From: Candidatus Portnoybacteria bacterium CG02_land_8_20_14_3_00_45_8
Lineage (GTDB): Bacteria; Patescibacteriota; Minisyncoccia; Portnoybacterales; GWB1-42-6
Length of the DNA stretch: 12,650 nt
Direction: 5' to 3'
Assembly (NCBI GenBank): GCA_002780785.1
Contig: PEUE01000032.1
Coordinates: 410-13,059, forward strand
Part shown: piece after piece, positions 1,393 through 10,832 of the stretch
Position numbering within the stretch: position 1 is the first letter of the stretch
Layout: every line of letters begins with the position of its first letter
The notes under the pieces: model-generated
Database searches by the model: none
What the model saw: the letters and a program-made list of their open reading frames with translations, nothing else
Told to the model about the DNA's origin: nothing
Program-made: the position numbers and the translations under genes

Positions 1393-1425
1393 AGCATCTA
1401 TCGAGGTTGAACCTCGATAGATGCT
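1393..1425. repeat. REP-like palindrome at the 3' end of the RAYT transposase gene
   Basis: Perfect inverted repeat: left arm AGCATCTATCGAGGTT, one central G, right arm AACCTCGATAGATGCT. The right arm overlaps the stop codon of the transposase gene. The core TATCGAGGTT matches the palindromes at 1914-1934 and 2127-2153 except for a C/T change that is compensated by G/A on the other arm. It could also act as a transcription end or stabiliser for the transposase mRNA. Confidence 0.85.
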
Positions 1426-2113
1426 ACTCAAAGGTCAAGTTTTTGTCCAATCGTAAATCTCTTTCTTTTAACCATCGCACTGCTTCTTTTCTATATTCCC
1501 TTGCGCCATCAAAAAATTCTAAAAGATCATCCCTCGTGGTTACGGAAGGAAAATTTTTTAATCCTATATAATCCGGAAAGCTGCTCCATCGATATTTTTC
1601 CAAAAAATCGATCTTATCTTCTATTGATGTTGAACTTTGATAATTCGGCATTAGTTTCAATGGATTAAAATGAATATAAAATGGCAAATGAATAAAATGC
1701 GCTCTTTTTAAAATCAGAACTGCCTTAAACCTTCCCTGAAATAAAGAGCCGACTCTTTCGTGCTTTTGATTAAAATACATACTATAACCAGTTCCTACTT
1801 TTTGTAAAAATTTGACTATCCCATTTTCTACTCTTTGCCTCAAAATTAAATGAAAATGATTTGGCATTAAAACAAATGCTAGAATATCCACGAGTAGTTT
1901 GCGTTTTTTAATATATTGAGGTTGAACCTCAATAGGCCTTGGCCCCCTTTTTAAGAAATAAGAAGAATTATAAACCCTGTCTTCGTCGTTAAATTCATAC
2001 AGATCGTGCATAAATCTAAAATAATCTTTTTCATCCATAAAAATATTGCGTTTTTCTACGCCGCGATTAAAAATATGATAAATTTGATTTTCAACAAATT
2101 GGGGTTTTTGCAT
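1424..2113 (-). CDS. REP-associated tyrosine transposase (RAYT, Y1_Tnp / IS200-like)
   Basis: This is a single-strand-DNA transposase of the Y1/HUH superfamily, REP-associated subgroup. From the ATG at 2113 it has 229 residues. Motifs visible are the N-terminal YHIFNRGVEKRNIF, the HUH metal-binding pair in VLMPNHFHLILRQ (His86, His88), a GSLFQGRFKAVLI segment, and the catalytic-tyrosine context FYIHFNPLKL (probably Tyr146), then YRWSSFPDYIG. All expected catalytic parts are present, so it may be active. An upstream ATG at 2128 lies inside the flanking hairpin and upstream of the predicted -10 box, so I prefer 2113. The gene is bracketed by REP-like hairpins and contains two more of them in frame (1914-1934, 1622-1642). 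RAYTs are thought to act on their cognate REP hairpins; here those are probably the flanking palindromes (inference). Confidence 0.9.
   Translation of the reverse strand: MQKPQFVENQIYHIFNRGVEKRNIFMDEKDYFRFMHDLYEFNDEDRVYNSSYFLKRGPRPIEVQPQYIKKRKLLVDILAFVLMPNHFHLILRQRVENGIVKFLQKVGTGYSMYFNQKHERVGSLFQGRFKAVLILKRAHFIHLPFYIHFNPLKLMPNYQSSTSIEDKIDFLEKYRWSSFPDYIGLKNFPSVTTRDDLLEFFDGAREYRKEAVRWLKERDLRLDKNLTFE
1622..1642. repeat. Degenerate REP-like copy inside the transposase gene
   Basis: The 21 bases match the perfect palindrome at 1914-1934 at about 17 positions but have lost perfect symmetry. They encode YQSSTSI in the transposase, between the catalytic-tyrosine region and the WSSFPDY motif. Confidence 0.55.
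1914..1934. repeat. REP-like palindrome inside the transposase gene
   Basis: Perfect inverted repeat: arms TATTGAGGTT and AACCTCAATA around a central G. It is read in frame as IEVQPQY, in the loop before the HUH strand. It matches the core of the palindrome at 2127-2153. Confidence 0.8.
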
Positions 2114-2119
2114 ATTTCT

Positions 2120-2148
2120 ATTGTACATCTATTGAGGTTCAACCTCAA
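2120..2148 (-). promoter_or_regulatory. Transposase promoter formed by the REP hairpin, leaderless
   Basis: On the minus strand TTGAGG (2143-2148) is followed after exactly 17 nt by TACAAT (2120-2125). The -35 box lies inside the palindrome. The expected transcription start, 7 nt after the -10 box, is the A of the ATG at 2113. Confidence 0.6.
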
Positions 2149-2155: not shown

Positions 2156-3151
2156 TTAAGGTTGAATGAGCTTTGTCAGGTTCAGCCAATCGTTGAGCAT
2201 TAAGGTTTCGGCTCGTTGTTTCGGCTCAATGTTCGCGGATCGCAATACTTTAATAATTTTTTCTCGTTTGAGTTTTAGCCCTTTGCTTAAATTATTGAGC
2301 AGTTGTTTGCGGGGGTGGGCAAAGCCGGCGCGAACTAGGCGGAAGAATCGTTCTATCTCCTTCTTTGTAAAAGGAGGGTGAGGGAGGATTTCGTTTCGTT
2401 CTAAATCCCCCCCCGCCACCCTTTCATAAGGGGGGGAATTATAGGGGGGTCTTTTGGCAGCAGAGGGGGAATTATGGGGAGTTATTCTAATAATCGCCGA
2501 GTCCACTTTGGGTTTGGGCCAAAAAGCGCCCTTGGGCACGTAAGAGATAATTTTTGGTTGAGCATAAAATTGCACCGATACCGCCAGAAGCGACATTTTG
2601 GGCGGCTTAGCGCCCGCCTCGCCCGACGAGCGGGCTCGTCGAGGCGGGCAAATACGCTGGGCCACCTCTTTTTGAATAAGCAAAACGATGTCTTGGGGCG
2701 GATTGGCGCTTTCCAATAACAGCCGAATTAGATGGGAAGTTAGGTAGTATGGAATATTAGCGATGACTTTATAGTTTGGTGAAGACGAGAATTTGTCATC
2801 CCGGCCTTGAGCCGGGATCCAGGACCTGGATTCCTGCTTTCGCAGGAATGACAGAATATCATCTTGGATAATTTCCACATTTTGATTATTTTGAAATTTG
2901 TTTTTGAGTTGCACGGCTAGCCGTTTATCTTTTTCAACAGCAATAACACGGCAGGCGTTTTTGGCCAGTTCTTCGGTCAGCGCGCCCAATCCCGGCCCAA
3001 TCTCCAGTACTCGCTCCCCTGCTTTGAGGTCAGCGGCTTGGATAATTTTGGCCAGCACATTTTTGTCGCGCAGAAAATTTTGGCCGAGAAGCTTGTTGGG
3101 TTTTAGAATGAAGGATTTTTTATTTGATTTATTTTTGTTTGCGATTCTCAT
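2156..3151 (-). CDS. rsmA: 16S rRNA (adenine1518/1519-N6)-dimethyltransferase RsmA (KsgA) with palindromic insertions
   Basis: RsmA dimethylates the two adjacent adenines in the 3'-terminal hairpin of 16S rRNA, using S-adenosylmethionine, late in 30S assembly. The N-terminal LLGQNFLRD is typical, motif I is VLEIGPGLGALTEEL (residues 48-62), and motif IV is NIPYY (132-136). LLIQKEVAQRI, KMSLLAVSVQFYA, and the C-terminal FFRLVRAGFAHPRKQLLNNL and PKQRAETL blocks all match. The protein has 331 residues while family members usually have about 260-280. The excess falls in three places that coincide with palindromic DNA: residues 101-119, about 169-180 and about 227-265. All are in frame and the catalytic motifs are intact, so the enzyme is probably functional. 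No Shine-Dalgarno sequence precedes the ATG. It follows uvrD after 94 nt on the same strand, so co-transcription is possible, although the gap holds a large inverted repeat. Confidence 0.95.
   Translation of the reverse strand: MRIANKNKSNKKSFILKPNKLLGQNFLRDKNVLAKIIQAADLKAGERVLEIGPGLGALTEELAKNACRVIAVEKDKRLAVQLKNKFQNNQNVEIIQDDILSFLRKQESRSWIPAQGRDDKFSSSPNYKVIANIPYYLTSHLIRLLLESANPPQDIVLLIQKEVAQRICPPRRARSSGEAGAKPPKMSLLAVSVQFYAQPKIISYVPKGAFWPKPKVDSAIIRITPHNSPSAAKRPPYNSPPYERVAGGDLERNEILPHPPFTKKEIERFFRLVRAGFAHPRKQLLNNLSKGLKLKREKIIKVLRSANIEPKQRAETLMLNDWLNLTKLIQP
2357..2475. repeat. C-rich palindromic element inserted in rsmA (third insertion)
   Basis: It contains two hairpins: CTCCTT (2357-2362) with AAGGAG (2371-2376), and a run of C at 2408-2414 with a run of G at 2430-2436. 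An 11-base direct repeat GGGGGAATTAT sits at 2432-2442 and 2465-2475. It is translated as roughly residues 227-265 of RsmA, a Pro-rich stretch including ILPHPPFTKKE, between the IIRI strand and the FFRLVRAGF helix that are normally close together. Confidence 0.65.
2612..2649. repeat. GC-rich palindromic element inserted in rsmA (second insertion)
   Basis: Outer arms GCCCGCCTCG (2612-2621) and CGAGGCGGGC (2640-2649) are perfect complements; inner arms ACGAG and CTCGT (2626-2639) extend the hairpin. It is read as about PPRRARSSGEAG in RsmA. Removing it would join RIC to AKPPKMSLL, the usual family sequence. The distal arm resembles that of the element in uvrD at 3718-3745. Confidence 0.75.
2795..2852. 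repeat. Double-hairpin palindromic element inserted in rsmA (first insertion)
   Basis: It is bounded by GTCAT and ATGAC. It contains two hairpins: ATCCCGGC/GCCGGGAT (2798-2818) and ATTCCTGC/GCAGGAAT (2830-2849), with CCAGGACCTGG between. It is translated as FLRKQESRSWIPAQGRDD (residues 102-119), a peptide I recognise as the translation of a repeat dispersed in many bacterial genomes. It lies between the QDDIL strand and the NYKVIANIPYY motif. Confidence 0.85.
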
Positions 3152-6582: not shown

Positions 6583-6993
6583 TTATTTTATTTTTTTCCA
6601 CTCTCTAACAATAACAGCTACGTAAAAAGTGTCCCCTGAGCCGTAAAGGATTCTTTTTAATATTTTAAAAACTTTTTTTATGTCATAGTCTATTAGTTTT
6701 CCAACAGGCTGCTGTTTTGGACTAAGGTCATGAACTGAATTTGTATCTCTTCTATCTAAGCATGCGTAGCTGTCTACGGAAAAACAATTATAGTTTGCTC
6801 TCAGTAATTTCCAGGCATTTGATAAATAGCGAGGCGCCCTAGAGGTTATCACAGAACATAAAAGATTGTGTTCAAAGCCCATAATTGCTGAGGGTAGTAA
6901 GATTAGCGCAAAATGTTCAGCTGACGCGCCGGTATCAGTGAAAACGTATTTTTTAAAATGAAGAATGTCAGCGGCTCGGTAGTTATTAACCAT
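6583..6993 (-). CDS. Hypothetical protein, candidate toxin of a Panacea-type toxin-antitoxin pair
   Basis: I do not recognise this 136-residue protein with certainty. It has no signal peptide or membrane segment. A hydrophobic strand EHFALILLPS, then LLCSVITSR, then FSVDSYACLDRRDTNSV and a final helix-like KKVFKILKRILYG give an order reminiscent of MazF/PemK-like beta-barrel RNases (strand, 'TS' strand, long C-terminal helix). The family's usual N-terminal GxxRPalVl is not clearly present (TDTGASAEHFALILL). It starts one base after the stop of the 6995-7522 gene (TAA-A-ATG) without a Shine-Dalgarno sequence, so translation is probably coupled. The position directly downstream of a Panacea-domain gene is the main reason to call it a toxin. 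Its base composition is visibly more AT-rich than comM or the M23 gene, suggesting acquisition. It ends just before the terminator at 6538-6566. Confidence 0.6.
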   Translation of the reverse strand: MVNNYRAADILHFKKYVFTDTGASAEHFALILLPSAIMGFEHNLLCSVITSRAPRYLSNAWKLLRANYNCFSVDSYACLDRRDTNSVHDLSPKQQPVGKLIDYDIKKVFKILKRILYGSGDTFYVAVIVREWKKIK

Positions 6994-6994
6994 T

Positions 6995-7522
6995 TTAGGC
7001 GGTAATTATTTCAAGAATATCTTCATCAAGAGGAATAGACTCAAAACTTATTCTAAGGCCGCTAAGGATATCGGTCTTAGCCTTTTTCTCTTCAGCTAGA
7101 ATTTCTTTCATGGGTTCGGTATTATAAACAATTTCTTTAAGTTTTTTTATTGTTAAGCCAAGATAAGACTCAAAGACACTATTCATGAATAAAACTTCGG
7201 ACTCTTTAAAATCAAATTTCTTTATTTGTTTTTTTAAAGAGATACAGTGTCGGCTATGGGTATAATCTGGTTTTTTTGTTTCTTTAATATTTATATATTT
7301 ATCGTTTAATTTTTCTAGCGCCCTAAAAATATCAATAGATATAGGTCCGTTTTTTTCTCGAACAAAACTAATTGAGTCAAAAAAGCTTTTTCCAGTGAAG
7401 CGGTAAGACTCAACTTCCAATAAAAAAACAAGCTTAAATAACTCAATTTTTGATAGGTTATCTAAGCCTTTTAGATTAGCCCGCGTTAGGAGATATAATA
7501 TTGTATTTTCTAATCTCCCCAT
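6995..7522 (-). CDS. Panacea (DUF4065)-like antitoxin
   Basis: This 175-residue soluble protein has the arrangement of the Panacea/DUF4065 domain: IELFKLVFLLEVESYRFTGK (residues 26-45) with the KL-[YF]-x-x-E/D signature, then the loop FVREKNGPISIDIFRALEKL (53-72) carrying the conserved Gly-Pro, and a later KEIVYNTEPMKEIL segment. Panacea domains neutralise many unrelated toxins, usually from an adjacent gene (Kurata and colleagues' PanAT systems; also SocA). Here the partner would be the gene immediately downstream, one base away. The ATG at 7522 is supported by a -10-like box 5-10 nt upstream. The cassette sits between comM and a convergent terminator and is AT-rich, as expected for a horizontally moved module. 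Assignment is by motif pattern only. Confidence 0.68.
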   Translation of the reverse strand: MGRLENTILYLLTRANLKGLDNLSKIELFKLVFLLEVESYRFTGKSFFDSISFVREKNGPISIDIFRALEKLNDKYINIKETKKPDYTHSRHCISLKKQIKKFDFKESEVLFMNSVFESYLGLTIKKLKEIVYNTEPMKEILAEEKKAKTDILSGLRISFESIPLDEDILEIITA

Positions 7523-9327: not shown

Positions 9328-9690
9328 CTACTTTTTATGGCACTTAAGACAAGCTTTTGCCTCGGGCATTATATCCAGGCGCTTGGGGTCAATCGGCCCT
9401 TGGCAGTTTTCACAGACGCCGTAAGTTCCACCGGCAATTTTTTCCAGGGCCTTGTTTATTTCAACCAATCTTAACTCCAGCGCATACTCAATTGGCAAGG
9501 CGCTGTCGTAGGTTGCCACTTTTAAGGCCGCTTCATCCGGGCTTTGAATTTGTCCCAAGTCCGGAAAGCGGGTATCATAATCGCCGGCCACCTTAATGTC
9601 TTTCTCGGTAAAGGTCGCCAGCTCTGCTTCGGCCTTGGCTTTGTGTTCCAGGAGTTTGGCTTTCAGTTGTTCTAACATTTTTTTATCCAT
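9328..9690 (-). CDS. DksA/TraR family C4 zinc-finger protein
   Basis: This is a small regulator of the DksA/TraR superfamily, whose members enter the RNA polymerase secondary channel and modulate initiation, often with ppGpp. The 120 residues contain an N-terminal helical region (about 1-30, MLEQLKAKLLEHKAKAEAEL), a central helix (about 65-88) and the C-terminal zinc finger: Cys93-x2-Cys96-x17-Cys114-x2-Cys117, with GTYGVCENCQGPI and RLDIMPEAKACLKC. Its length and YG-C pattern fit the short TraR/YteA-like branch more than E. coli DksA (151 residues). The loop between the helices is IQSPDEAALK; whether it carries the acidic tip residues needed for DksA activity cannot be settled by eye. It has its own promoter and terminator, so it is monocistronic. 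The ncRNA candidate lies just upstream on the same strand. Confidence 0.93.
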   Translation of the reverse strand: MDKKMLEQLKAKLLEHKAKAEAELATFTEKDIKVAGDYDTRFPDLGQIQSPDEAALKVATYDSALPIEYALELRLVEINKALEKIAGGTYGVCENCQGPIDPKRLDIMPEAKACLKCHKK

Positions 9691-9702: not shown

Positions 9703-9732
9703 ATTATAAGGTCAGGCCTTGCAATAAAGCAA
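9703..9732 (-). promoter_or_regulatory. Promoter of the dksA-like gene, short leader
   Basis: On the minus strand TTGCTT (9727-9732) and a perfect TATAAT (9703-9708) are spaced 18 nt. The expected start near 9696 leaves a leader of about 6 nt before the ATG at 9690. Confidence 0.65.
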
Positions 9733-9770: not shown

Positions 9771-9795
9771 TAAAAAAAACACCGCTTGTCGGTGT
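9771..9795 (-). terminator. Intrinsic terminator of the candidate ncRNA
   Basis: On the minus strand ACACCG pairs with CGGTGT (9779-9795) across the loop ACAAG and is followed by an uninterrupted run of eight T (9772-9779). No coding gene ends nearby on this strand, so it must end some other transcript. Confidence 0.88.
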
Positions 9796-10063
9796 CGGTC
9801 TGGACTGAGGGTTTTTAAAATTATTGAGGGGCGTTATGAGCCCGAATTATATAAATTATTACAAGGGTTCAACGCCCCTCAGCCTTTATGCACTATTGCC
9901 CTTTATTAGGACAGACCTCTTTGGCTTTATTTTTATGCAGCCATTGAAAGTACTTATAGCGTACAAAGGAAAAAATGGTCCTTAACCAGTTATTCCTGCT
10001 CAACGCAGGTATTGGATAGGAATCCAATAACTTTTTTAAAGTAACTAACCAGTCAATGACTCT
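9771..10063 (-). ncRNA. Candidate structured non-coding RNA, family unknown
   Basis: About 290 nt lie between a consensus promoter (10070-10098) and a strong intrinsic terminator (9771-9795), with no ATG- or GTG-started frame of useful length on this strand. The segment is rich in complementary arms: 10011-10017/10022-10028 (7 bp, 4-nt loop), 9995-9999/10005-10009 (5 bp), 9922-9926/9939-9943 (5 bp), 9826-9835/9871-9880 (10 bp, perfect), and a long-range pair 9797-9802/9912-9917 (6 bp). A second long-range pair, 9805-9811/9876-9882 (7 bp), competes with the 10-bp hairpin. I see no RNase P RNA, SRP RNA or tmRNA hallmarks. 6S RNA or a lineage-specific RNA remain possible. The transcript ends before the dksA promoter, so it is probably an independent trans-acting or housekeeping RNA rather than a dksA leader. 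Confidence 0.6.
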
Positions 10064-10069
10064 AATGAT

Positions 10070-10098
10070 ATTCTAACACTGGGCTAAACTTGTGTCAA
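10070..10098 (-). promoter_or_regulatory. Strong promoter of the candidate ncRNA
   Basis: On the minus strand a perfect TTGACA (10093-10098) and TAGAAT (10070-10075) are spaced exactly 17 nt. This is the best -35/-10 pair in the window. Transcription should start near 10063. Confidence 0.75.
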
Positions 10099-10133: not shown

Positions 10134-10832
10134 CTAATCAATTACCCTGTCAATGGTTTCTTTGAGGGCGTTAAGATCACTACTGATTAAAAAATAGTTT
10201 TGAACCTGAACATAAAAGAGATTCGCTTGGCTCTGATTTAATTCTTTGACTTTAGTAATGGTGGTTTGGCGGTAGTCCTCGTCGGCCAGGTCAAAATTTT
10301 GTTTAAGTTGCTGAGTAGTTTGTTTAAGCAGGGCGTCAAAATCGTTACGGCTGGCTTGTCTGGTAGTAAAAATCAGCCAAGCGGGTCGCGGCCCGACCTT
10401 GGGCAATATTGCTAGAGCCATTTTATTGTCAAAGAGGCCTGAGATAGCATCAAGCGAGGACAGCTGGTTTTTAGCCAAGAATTTTTTTGTTGTTTCTTGG
10501 GCCCAGTTAAAGGGCGGCCAGCTATACTGGTTTTTGGAGAGCGCCACAACTATTTCTTTGAGGGCGGTCTGGTCAAAGTAAGCCACCAGAGCGGTTTTTG
10601 GGGGCATCAGATTGTCAAAAGGCAAAGGCGGTTTGACAATGAAAAAGCAAATCAACGCTACTCCTTCCCCAATAGCCGCGGCTATCAAGGCCCAAAACAG
10701 CCAACGGAGATAGCGGGCAATGACGGGCTTTTGGGCATTTTCCGGGCTGGGAGTTAAGTTTAGGACGTTTTTAACTTCCGTCTCGCTGGGCTTAGCCGTC
10801 CGTCTTATTTTTATGGGAATAAATGAAGCCAT
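10134..10832 (-). CDS. DUF3352-like single-pass membrane protein
   Basis: I cannot assign a function. The 232-residue protein has a basic, probably cytoplasmic N-terminus (about 1-42), one membrane segment at about 43-66 (LFWALIAAAIGEGVALICFFIV) and an outside domain beginning LMPPKTALVAYFDQ, as in DUF3352-type proteins where a 'P-x-x-T/S-A-L' strand opens the domain. Its second half contains PAWLIFTTRQASRNDFDALL and, at the end, YFLISSDLNALKETIDRVID. A similar order of segments occurs in the protein at 11773-12650, so the two look like distant relatives. It starts 5 nt after the nucleotidyltransferase gene with no Shine-Dalgarno sequence and is the last gene of the cluster; the ncRNA promoter follows at once. 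Confidence 0.72.
   Translation of the reverse strand: MASFIPIKIRRTAKPSETEVKNVLNLTPSPENAQKPVIARYLRWLFWALIAAAIGEGVALICFFIVKPPLPFDNLMPPKTALVAYFDQTALKEIVVALSKNQYSWPPFNWAQETTKKFLAKNQLSSLDAISGLFDNKMALAILPKVGPRPAWLIFTTRQASRNDFDALLKQTTQQLKQNFDLADEDYRQTTITKVKELNQSQANLFYVQVQNYFLISSDLNALKETIDRVID

Follow-up and report, generated by a model that had tools for sequence, protein, structure and literature searches.

A probable RNA gene beside dksA in Candidatus Portnoybacteria and other Patescibacteria, of a family unlisted in Rfam

Here, we describe a structured RNA encoded beside dksA in Candidatus Portnoybacteria bacterium CG02_land_8_20_14_3_00_45_8 (assembly GCA_002780785.1, contig PEUE01000032.1), which, judged from sequence comparison, belongs to an unlisted RNA family and is probably a real RNA gene, because paired positions change together, preserving the pairing, across many distant relatives. 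The window, to which all coordinates refer, is the whole stretch of DNA analysed (12,650 nucleotides). The Patescibacteria rank with the most reduced bacteria, and to our knowledge little is known of their non-coding RNAs. The RNA is found in many genomes of the class, in three outside the class and in one Kerfeldbacteria record, with genome sizes of roughly 0.4-1.3 Mb; an RNA whose fold, and often also whose location next to dksA, persists across many class genomes is probably important to Patescibacteria. The locus is laid out as follows.

10134..10832, minus strand: upstream neighbour, a DUF3352-like protein of 232 aa (E 8.1e-5, below the Pfam cut-off)
10070..10098, minus strand: sigma-70-type promoter TTGACA-17-TAGAAT, with TG before the -10 (11/12 consensus bases)
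9771..10064, minus strand: structured RNA, ends inferred from promoter and terminator (fold z -6.2)
9778..9796, minus strand: intrinsic terminator stem, then T run (sequence search of the window)
9703..9732, minus strand: possible separate dksA promoter, TTGCTT-18-TATAAT (seen by eye; absent from the promoter-search list)
9328..9690, minus strand: downstream neighbour, a DksA/TraR zinc-finger protein of 120 aa (ORF list and domain search)

The preliminary description of this DNA had placed the TTGACA-17-TAGAAT promoter opposite a terminator about 290 nt away on the minus strand and saw no supported protein between them; the strong expression it proposed is a prediction from the promoter. Both elements are confirmed, the promoter by its 11/12 match and the terminator by a stem with a T run. 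The promoter has the top score among the 32 sites listed in the window (sites of at least 9/12 average 16.7 in the shuffled window), and terminator-like sites number 29 in the window versus 20.5 in shuffles, so that this class of site is by itself not rare. The ORF list agrees that no supported protein lies between: the longest minus-strand frame has 44 aa and the longest plus-strand frame 53 aa (TTG start in each). Codon-like conservation of a frame, named beforehand as grounds for refutation, was checked through this ORF list, which is the sole basis for rejecting a coding function.

The RNA of the window folds at -94.2 kcal/mol, versus -63.6 +/- 4.9 kcal/mol for shuffled sequences (z -6.2; 0/200 shuffles equal). 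A set of 37 RNAs was assembled around promoter anchors chosen by eye (G003, which has no promoter anchor, was left out); z lies below -3 in 37/37, and below -2 in 32/32 refolded without P3 (60 shuffles each). The conserved elements, in transcript order, are:

10046..10056, minus strand: 5' strand of the long-range helix P1, TTGACTGGTTA (helix comparison)
10038..10045, minus strand: place of a boxA-like motif, in the window GTTACTTT, divergent from G[TC]TCTTT (motif comparison)
9982..9992, minus strand: 3' strand of P1, TAACTGGTTAA (helix comparison)
9959..9969, minus strand: 5' strand of P2, a helix with one A-C mismatch (helix table)
9883..9893, minus strand: 3' strand of P2, immediately 5' of P3 (helix table)
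9821..9884, minus strand: hairpin P3, GAGGGGCGTTGA-CCC...CGGG...AACGCCCCTC, the best conserved element (range of the model match)

Conservation of the pairs in relatives had been set beforehand as a test on which the RNA could fail, and the pairs are kept. P3 is 90.9% paired in 15 sequences, with both-side changes at 12/17 pairs, and 89.6% paired in 25 sequences, with both-side changes at 15/17; its covariation score in the 25 is 0.446, versus 0.203 shuffled and at most 0.170 slid, and 0/500 shuffles reached the observed values. Members from outside the order were picked up with P3 models, a selection that favours the P3 fold. Whole-RNA MAFFT alignment left P1 and P2 unaligned, so the helices were compared singly; since their strands were chosen as complementary runs, only both-side changes are informative. 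P1 has the core [A/G]CUG : [C/U][A/G]G[U/C] and both-side changes at 9/12 columns (20/37 RNAs tabled); in P2, 3/140 cells are unpaired (11/13 order RNAs tabled). The hairpins and long-range pairings seen earlier in the window are present, with P1, P2 and P3 backed by relatives; the other hairpins of the minimum-energy fold are not all backed. The possibility that CGGAGGG, present in a P1 hairpin, mimics a Shine-Dalgarno sequence was rejected, since it occurs in only part of the order and the copies read have no start codon at the usual distance (by eye). A T run follows P3 in 13/24 copies from outside the order, whereas order copies have a separate terminator after it (by eye).

It is scarcely credible that the region holds no RNA gene and is a spacer with a promoter, stacked terminators or mobile repeats between two genes. 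Such a spacer would account for the palindromic repeats near several of the RNA loci and for the commonness of terminator-like hairpins in the window, but not for long-range both-side changes and a kept order of elements, nor for z below -3 in every RNA folded.

The covariance scan against Rfam that had been proposed earlier assigns no family at gathering score in the window, and a permissive scan yields six weak matches only, the best being Ms_IGR-7 on P3 (E 0.065, 21.4 of 45 bits). Across the loci of 22 relatives (8+5+9), no family exceeds its cut-off at the RNA itself; the one match above cut-off is a tRNA adjoining the RNA in L119, and the closest approach to a cut-off at the RNA comes from the Bacillus sRNA ncr1175, matched over P3 in the same locus (37.2 of 60 bits, E 0.0016). 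SRP RNA was tested solely via these scans of the window and the 22 loci. RNase P RNA (RF00010) was rejected as an identity, the genome having its own match elsewhere (G000:C1; 21/23 order genomes match), as was tmRNA (RF00023), with a full-length match elsewhere (G000:C45) and none found by ARAGORN in the window. Both genes lie on other contigs of the genome. For 6S RNA (RF00013), the genome of the window, estimated 76% complete, has no match at E 0.001, a level reached in 4/38 genomes, one of them over cut-off; identity with 6S was rejected on G002, G003 and G006, which carry the window-type RNA together with a 6S match on other contigs (over cut-off in G002 only). A diverged member of a known family (6S, SRP RNA, RNase P RNA, tmRNA or other) is highly improbable: the missing 6S match and the weak Rfam matches on P3 speak for it, whereas the separate RNase P RNA and tmRNA genes, the separate 6S matches in RNA-bearing genomes and the failure of the window and 22 loci to reach any cut-off at the RNA speak against it. 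Together with the fold z of -6.2 and the kept pairs, these scans support the initial proposal of a structured non-coding RNA outside known families.

Clear copies of the RNA are present in 15/23 genomes of the order (Ca. Portnoybacteria by the named copies). Covariance models of P3 were built from 9 order sequences (R1), from 15 sequences (R2) and from 25 (R3). R3 at E 0.01 matches 17/23 order genomes, the 15 clear ones plus G009 and G016, which are weak and unchecked; under strict filters it has no match at E 0.01 in the other six (G001, G005, G007, G010, G012, G019). Plain DNA similarity over 55 genomes falls below E 0.001 for G008 and G014 alone, and the copies in G003, G006 and G018 were found via the P3 model. 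dksA is matched in 18/23 order genomes and lies 67-1326 nt downstream of the RNA, on the same strand, in 12 of the 15 with clear copies. Upstream of dksA, eight order genomes besides that of the window show the same arrangement by eye: promoter, GTTCTTT in most, hairpins, P3 as GAGGGGCRTTGA-CCC...GGG..TCAAYGCCCCTC or a variant, and terminator. The DUF3352-like gene was confirmed in 11/15, eight by alignment and three by profile (G013, G015, G017); the RNA lies downstream of it in G013 and G017, and a different gene precedes the RNA in G004 and G014. When 84,980 genomes of named records were searched with an exact pattern for P3, 12 loci came up, of which six are known copies titled Portnoybacteria, Parcubacteria or Patescibacteria, one is a duplicate sequence, and one (L115, Ca. 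Kerfeldbacteria) is an additional copy with dksA just downstream. The remaining four, in Vibrio, Leptothoe, Actinomycetota and Singulisphaera records, were not accepted as relatives.

Beyond the order, R1 matched 18/237 class genomes, nine of them non-order. Four of these nine matches are on the dksA strand, either at the gene or no more than about 570 nt ahead of it: in G140 the match is 17 nt before dksA, in G185 and G238 the match is about 40 nt and about 570 nt before the dksA open frame, and in G186 it is at the 5' end of the frame. The other five (G221, G191, G090:C27, G046, G044) are away from dksA. Among 379 phylum genomes, R2 at E 0.001 matched four, namely the genome of the window and three outside the class (G265, G300, G339); in G265 the upstream gene matches the DUF3352-like profile (E 6.6e-9) and dksA is downstream with one gene between. 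Over 83 dksA neighbourhoods (L128, from the already included G013, was excluded from the dksA loci), R2 scored five matches at E below 0.01, each of them preceding dksA in the same orientation, and weaker ones of mixed placement, with L124, L125, L173 and L192 on the other strand or downstream of dksA at E of at least 0.055.

R3 at E 0.01 matched 75/383 sampled class genomes. Placement was scored in a test set of 19, comprising class genomes that were matched, were not used in R3 and have a known dksA place; outside it fell G009 (only pieces) and G016, G065, G108 and G174 (no dksA place). The dksA search gave no place for genomes numbered above G184; for G185, G186, G238, G660 and G680 it came from an HMM run on their loci, and in G660 and G680, both outside the R3 model, dksA is next to the match. 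In 7/19 the match precedes dksA by 40-914 nt in the same orientation, and in 0/19 is one equally close on the opposite strand; for a target of roughly 1 kb on a single strand and a genome size near 0.8 Mb, we roughly estimate that well under one such upstream placement would be expected by chance. The match is on a contig other than dksA's in 11/19 and elsewhere on the contig in 1/19. G088, G150 and G100 have matches of E about 1e-7 yet on a contig other than dksA's, as has G009, outside the count of 19. P3 is a G+C-rich hairpin, and model matches away from dksA (5/9 for R1, 12/19 for R3) were not counted as support.

The main rival to an independent RNA gene is a cis-acting leader or attenuator of dksA, in which the RNA would be the 5' part of the dksA transcript, P3 an attenuator whose read-through is set by boxA and P1, and free S10-NusB the factor that tunes dksA; we consider it unlikely. 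In 18/21 model-building genomes the RNA precedes dksA by no more than 2.3 kb in the same orientation, as a leader would, a placement owed in part to many of the genomes having been found from dksA, and it does so within 1 kb in the 7/19 genomes outside the model. The T runs after P3 in non-order copies (13/24) also fit a leader, and so does G140, where only 19 nt separate P3 from dksA with no promoter-like site between, so that a leader is favoured at least there. In 14/15 loci, against a leader, promoter-like sites of 8-12 of 12 stand between P3 and dksA (a loose threshold with no shuffle control), and order copies have their separate terminator after P3 (by eye). Other genes, which we take to be yraN-like or lgt-like, intervene between RNA and dksA in G033, G104, G061, G144 and G265. 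A gap of 2.2 kb separates RNA and dksA in G017, the two are 6.5 kb apart and oppositely oriented in G044, and no dksA is found within the 3-kb locus of G339 or G300, so that G044, G339 and G300 have no dksA downstream within the DNA seen. The distant copies (G017, G044, G339, G300), the promoter-like sites before dksA and the second terminator of the order tip the balance from a leader towards a trans-acting RNA gene.

In the boxA consensus the core is of TCTTT type. The related motif G[TC]TCTTT occurs in 26/37 RNAs, against a shuffle mean of 2.0 and a highest value of 7 in 300 rounds, and in 12/13 order RNAs tested, the exception being the window's own GTTACTTT; the exact motif is absent from 11/37 RNAs, the window's included. 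Among the 16S leaders, 11/14 were readable, and GTTCTTT stands shortly after a promoter-like site in 2/11 (G017, G021), but is absent from the 300 nt before 16S in five leaders of the window's family (its own genome, G003, G004, G007 and G008). The boxA reading is therefore weakest in the family of the window itself, where GTTACTTT is divergent and these five leaders have no GTTCTTT. In L088 (G017) and L090 (G021), 16S leaders and RNA copies share GTTCTTT. According to PMC5725501, the main effect of Nus factors at rRNA is to promote RNA folding, and they can either prevent or promote termination by Rho, as the context dictates; from this we infer a boxA step at the predicted boxA-like site here.

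Our preferred reading, to which we give about an even chance, is a gene of Patescibacteria for a structured non-coding RNA that is transcribed on its own, putatively with the aid of boxA, and whose mature form would act in trans. In the proposed mechanism, NusB-S10 would bind the boxA-like site during transcription, in the loop closed by P1 or, in short forms, just 5' of P1, and would keep polymerase processive on an untranslated, structured transcript. The 5' strand, held near polymerase, could then close P1, much as Nus factors reportedly help rRNA to fold. P3, which has its own T run in about half of the distant relatives, would end and protect the RNA, and the mature product would be stable, trans-acting and probably protein-bound. 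The RNA would probably act in trans, and given its steady dksA neighbourhood a target is best sought first in the transcription or ribosome machinery. With a family and its conserved positions in hand, direct tests are feasible.

It is distinctly improbable that the RNA serves as a decoy, titrating NusB-S10 or another boxA-binding factor and thereby setting rRNA transcription. A boxA-like motif far above shuffles would suit a decoy, but 11/37 RNAs, that of the window among them, do without the exact motif, and titration has no need of three conserved helices.

An extension of the preferred trans-acting RNA gene, unlikely as a whole, is a Patescibacteria-wide housekeeping RNA with boxA-guided strand exchange and a NusB-S10 tether, which would report ribosomal protein supply to the transcription machinery beside dksA. 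In long forms, strand B can pair across boxA with A' (P1) or with an earlier strand A, and both the A/B and the B/A' helix are listed for G104, G238, G033 and G339, of 8 long forms; since strand B is able to pair with A or A', the RNA could switch between two folds during synthesis. Separately, the long forms of L155, L156, L168, L189 and L057 (about 460 nt) have in common a C-rich-looped hairpin of the type CAATCACAATTTCCCCCTATTTGTGATTG, along with A-rich linkers, for example AAACAAAAACAAAA.

Standalone structured RNAs form a known kind, within which the dksA-side RNA appears to be a new family. OLE, raiA, GOLLD and ROOL are orphan large structured bacterial RNAs, which it resembles in being standalone, heavily structured and intergenic, with a function unknown or late-found. 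6S RNA is likewise a gene with its own promoter; it forms one long irregular hairpin, in contrast to the three-domain fold described here. Against Rfam (release 15), the dksA-side RNA reaches no cut-off in the window or the 22 relatives' loci, and no description of it was found in the literature, among open-licence papers. The boxA elements of rRNA and suhB resemble the predicted boxA-like site in having a TCTTT-type core in an untranslated stretch of transcript, but differ in that the motif here sits in a seemingly independent RNA gene, frequently within the P1-closed loop, and in that the bases 3' of the putative boxA core are not conserved.

Several other features were noted in the window and in relatives. 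A SocA/Panacea-domain protein, antitoxin-like (E 5.8e-11), is encoded at 6995-7522 (minus strand), with a 136-aa ORF directly downstream (6583-6993, minus strand); the two are possibly a toxin-antitoxin pair. The frames at 2156-3151 and 1424-2128 (minus strand) are presumably a KsgA-like 16S rRNA dimethyltransferase and an adjoining REP-type transposase-like ORF, and stretches such as RKQESRSWIPAQGRDDK and PRRARSSGEAGAKPP in the KsgA-like protein look like in-frame repeat insertions. A palindromic repeat of the type CCCCGTTAGA...TCTAACGGGG recurs near genes in L003 (about 1335-1440), in L034 just before dksA, in the 16S leader of L089 and in L147.
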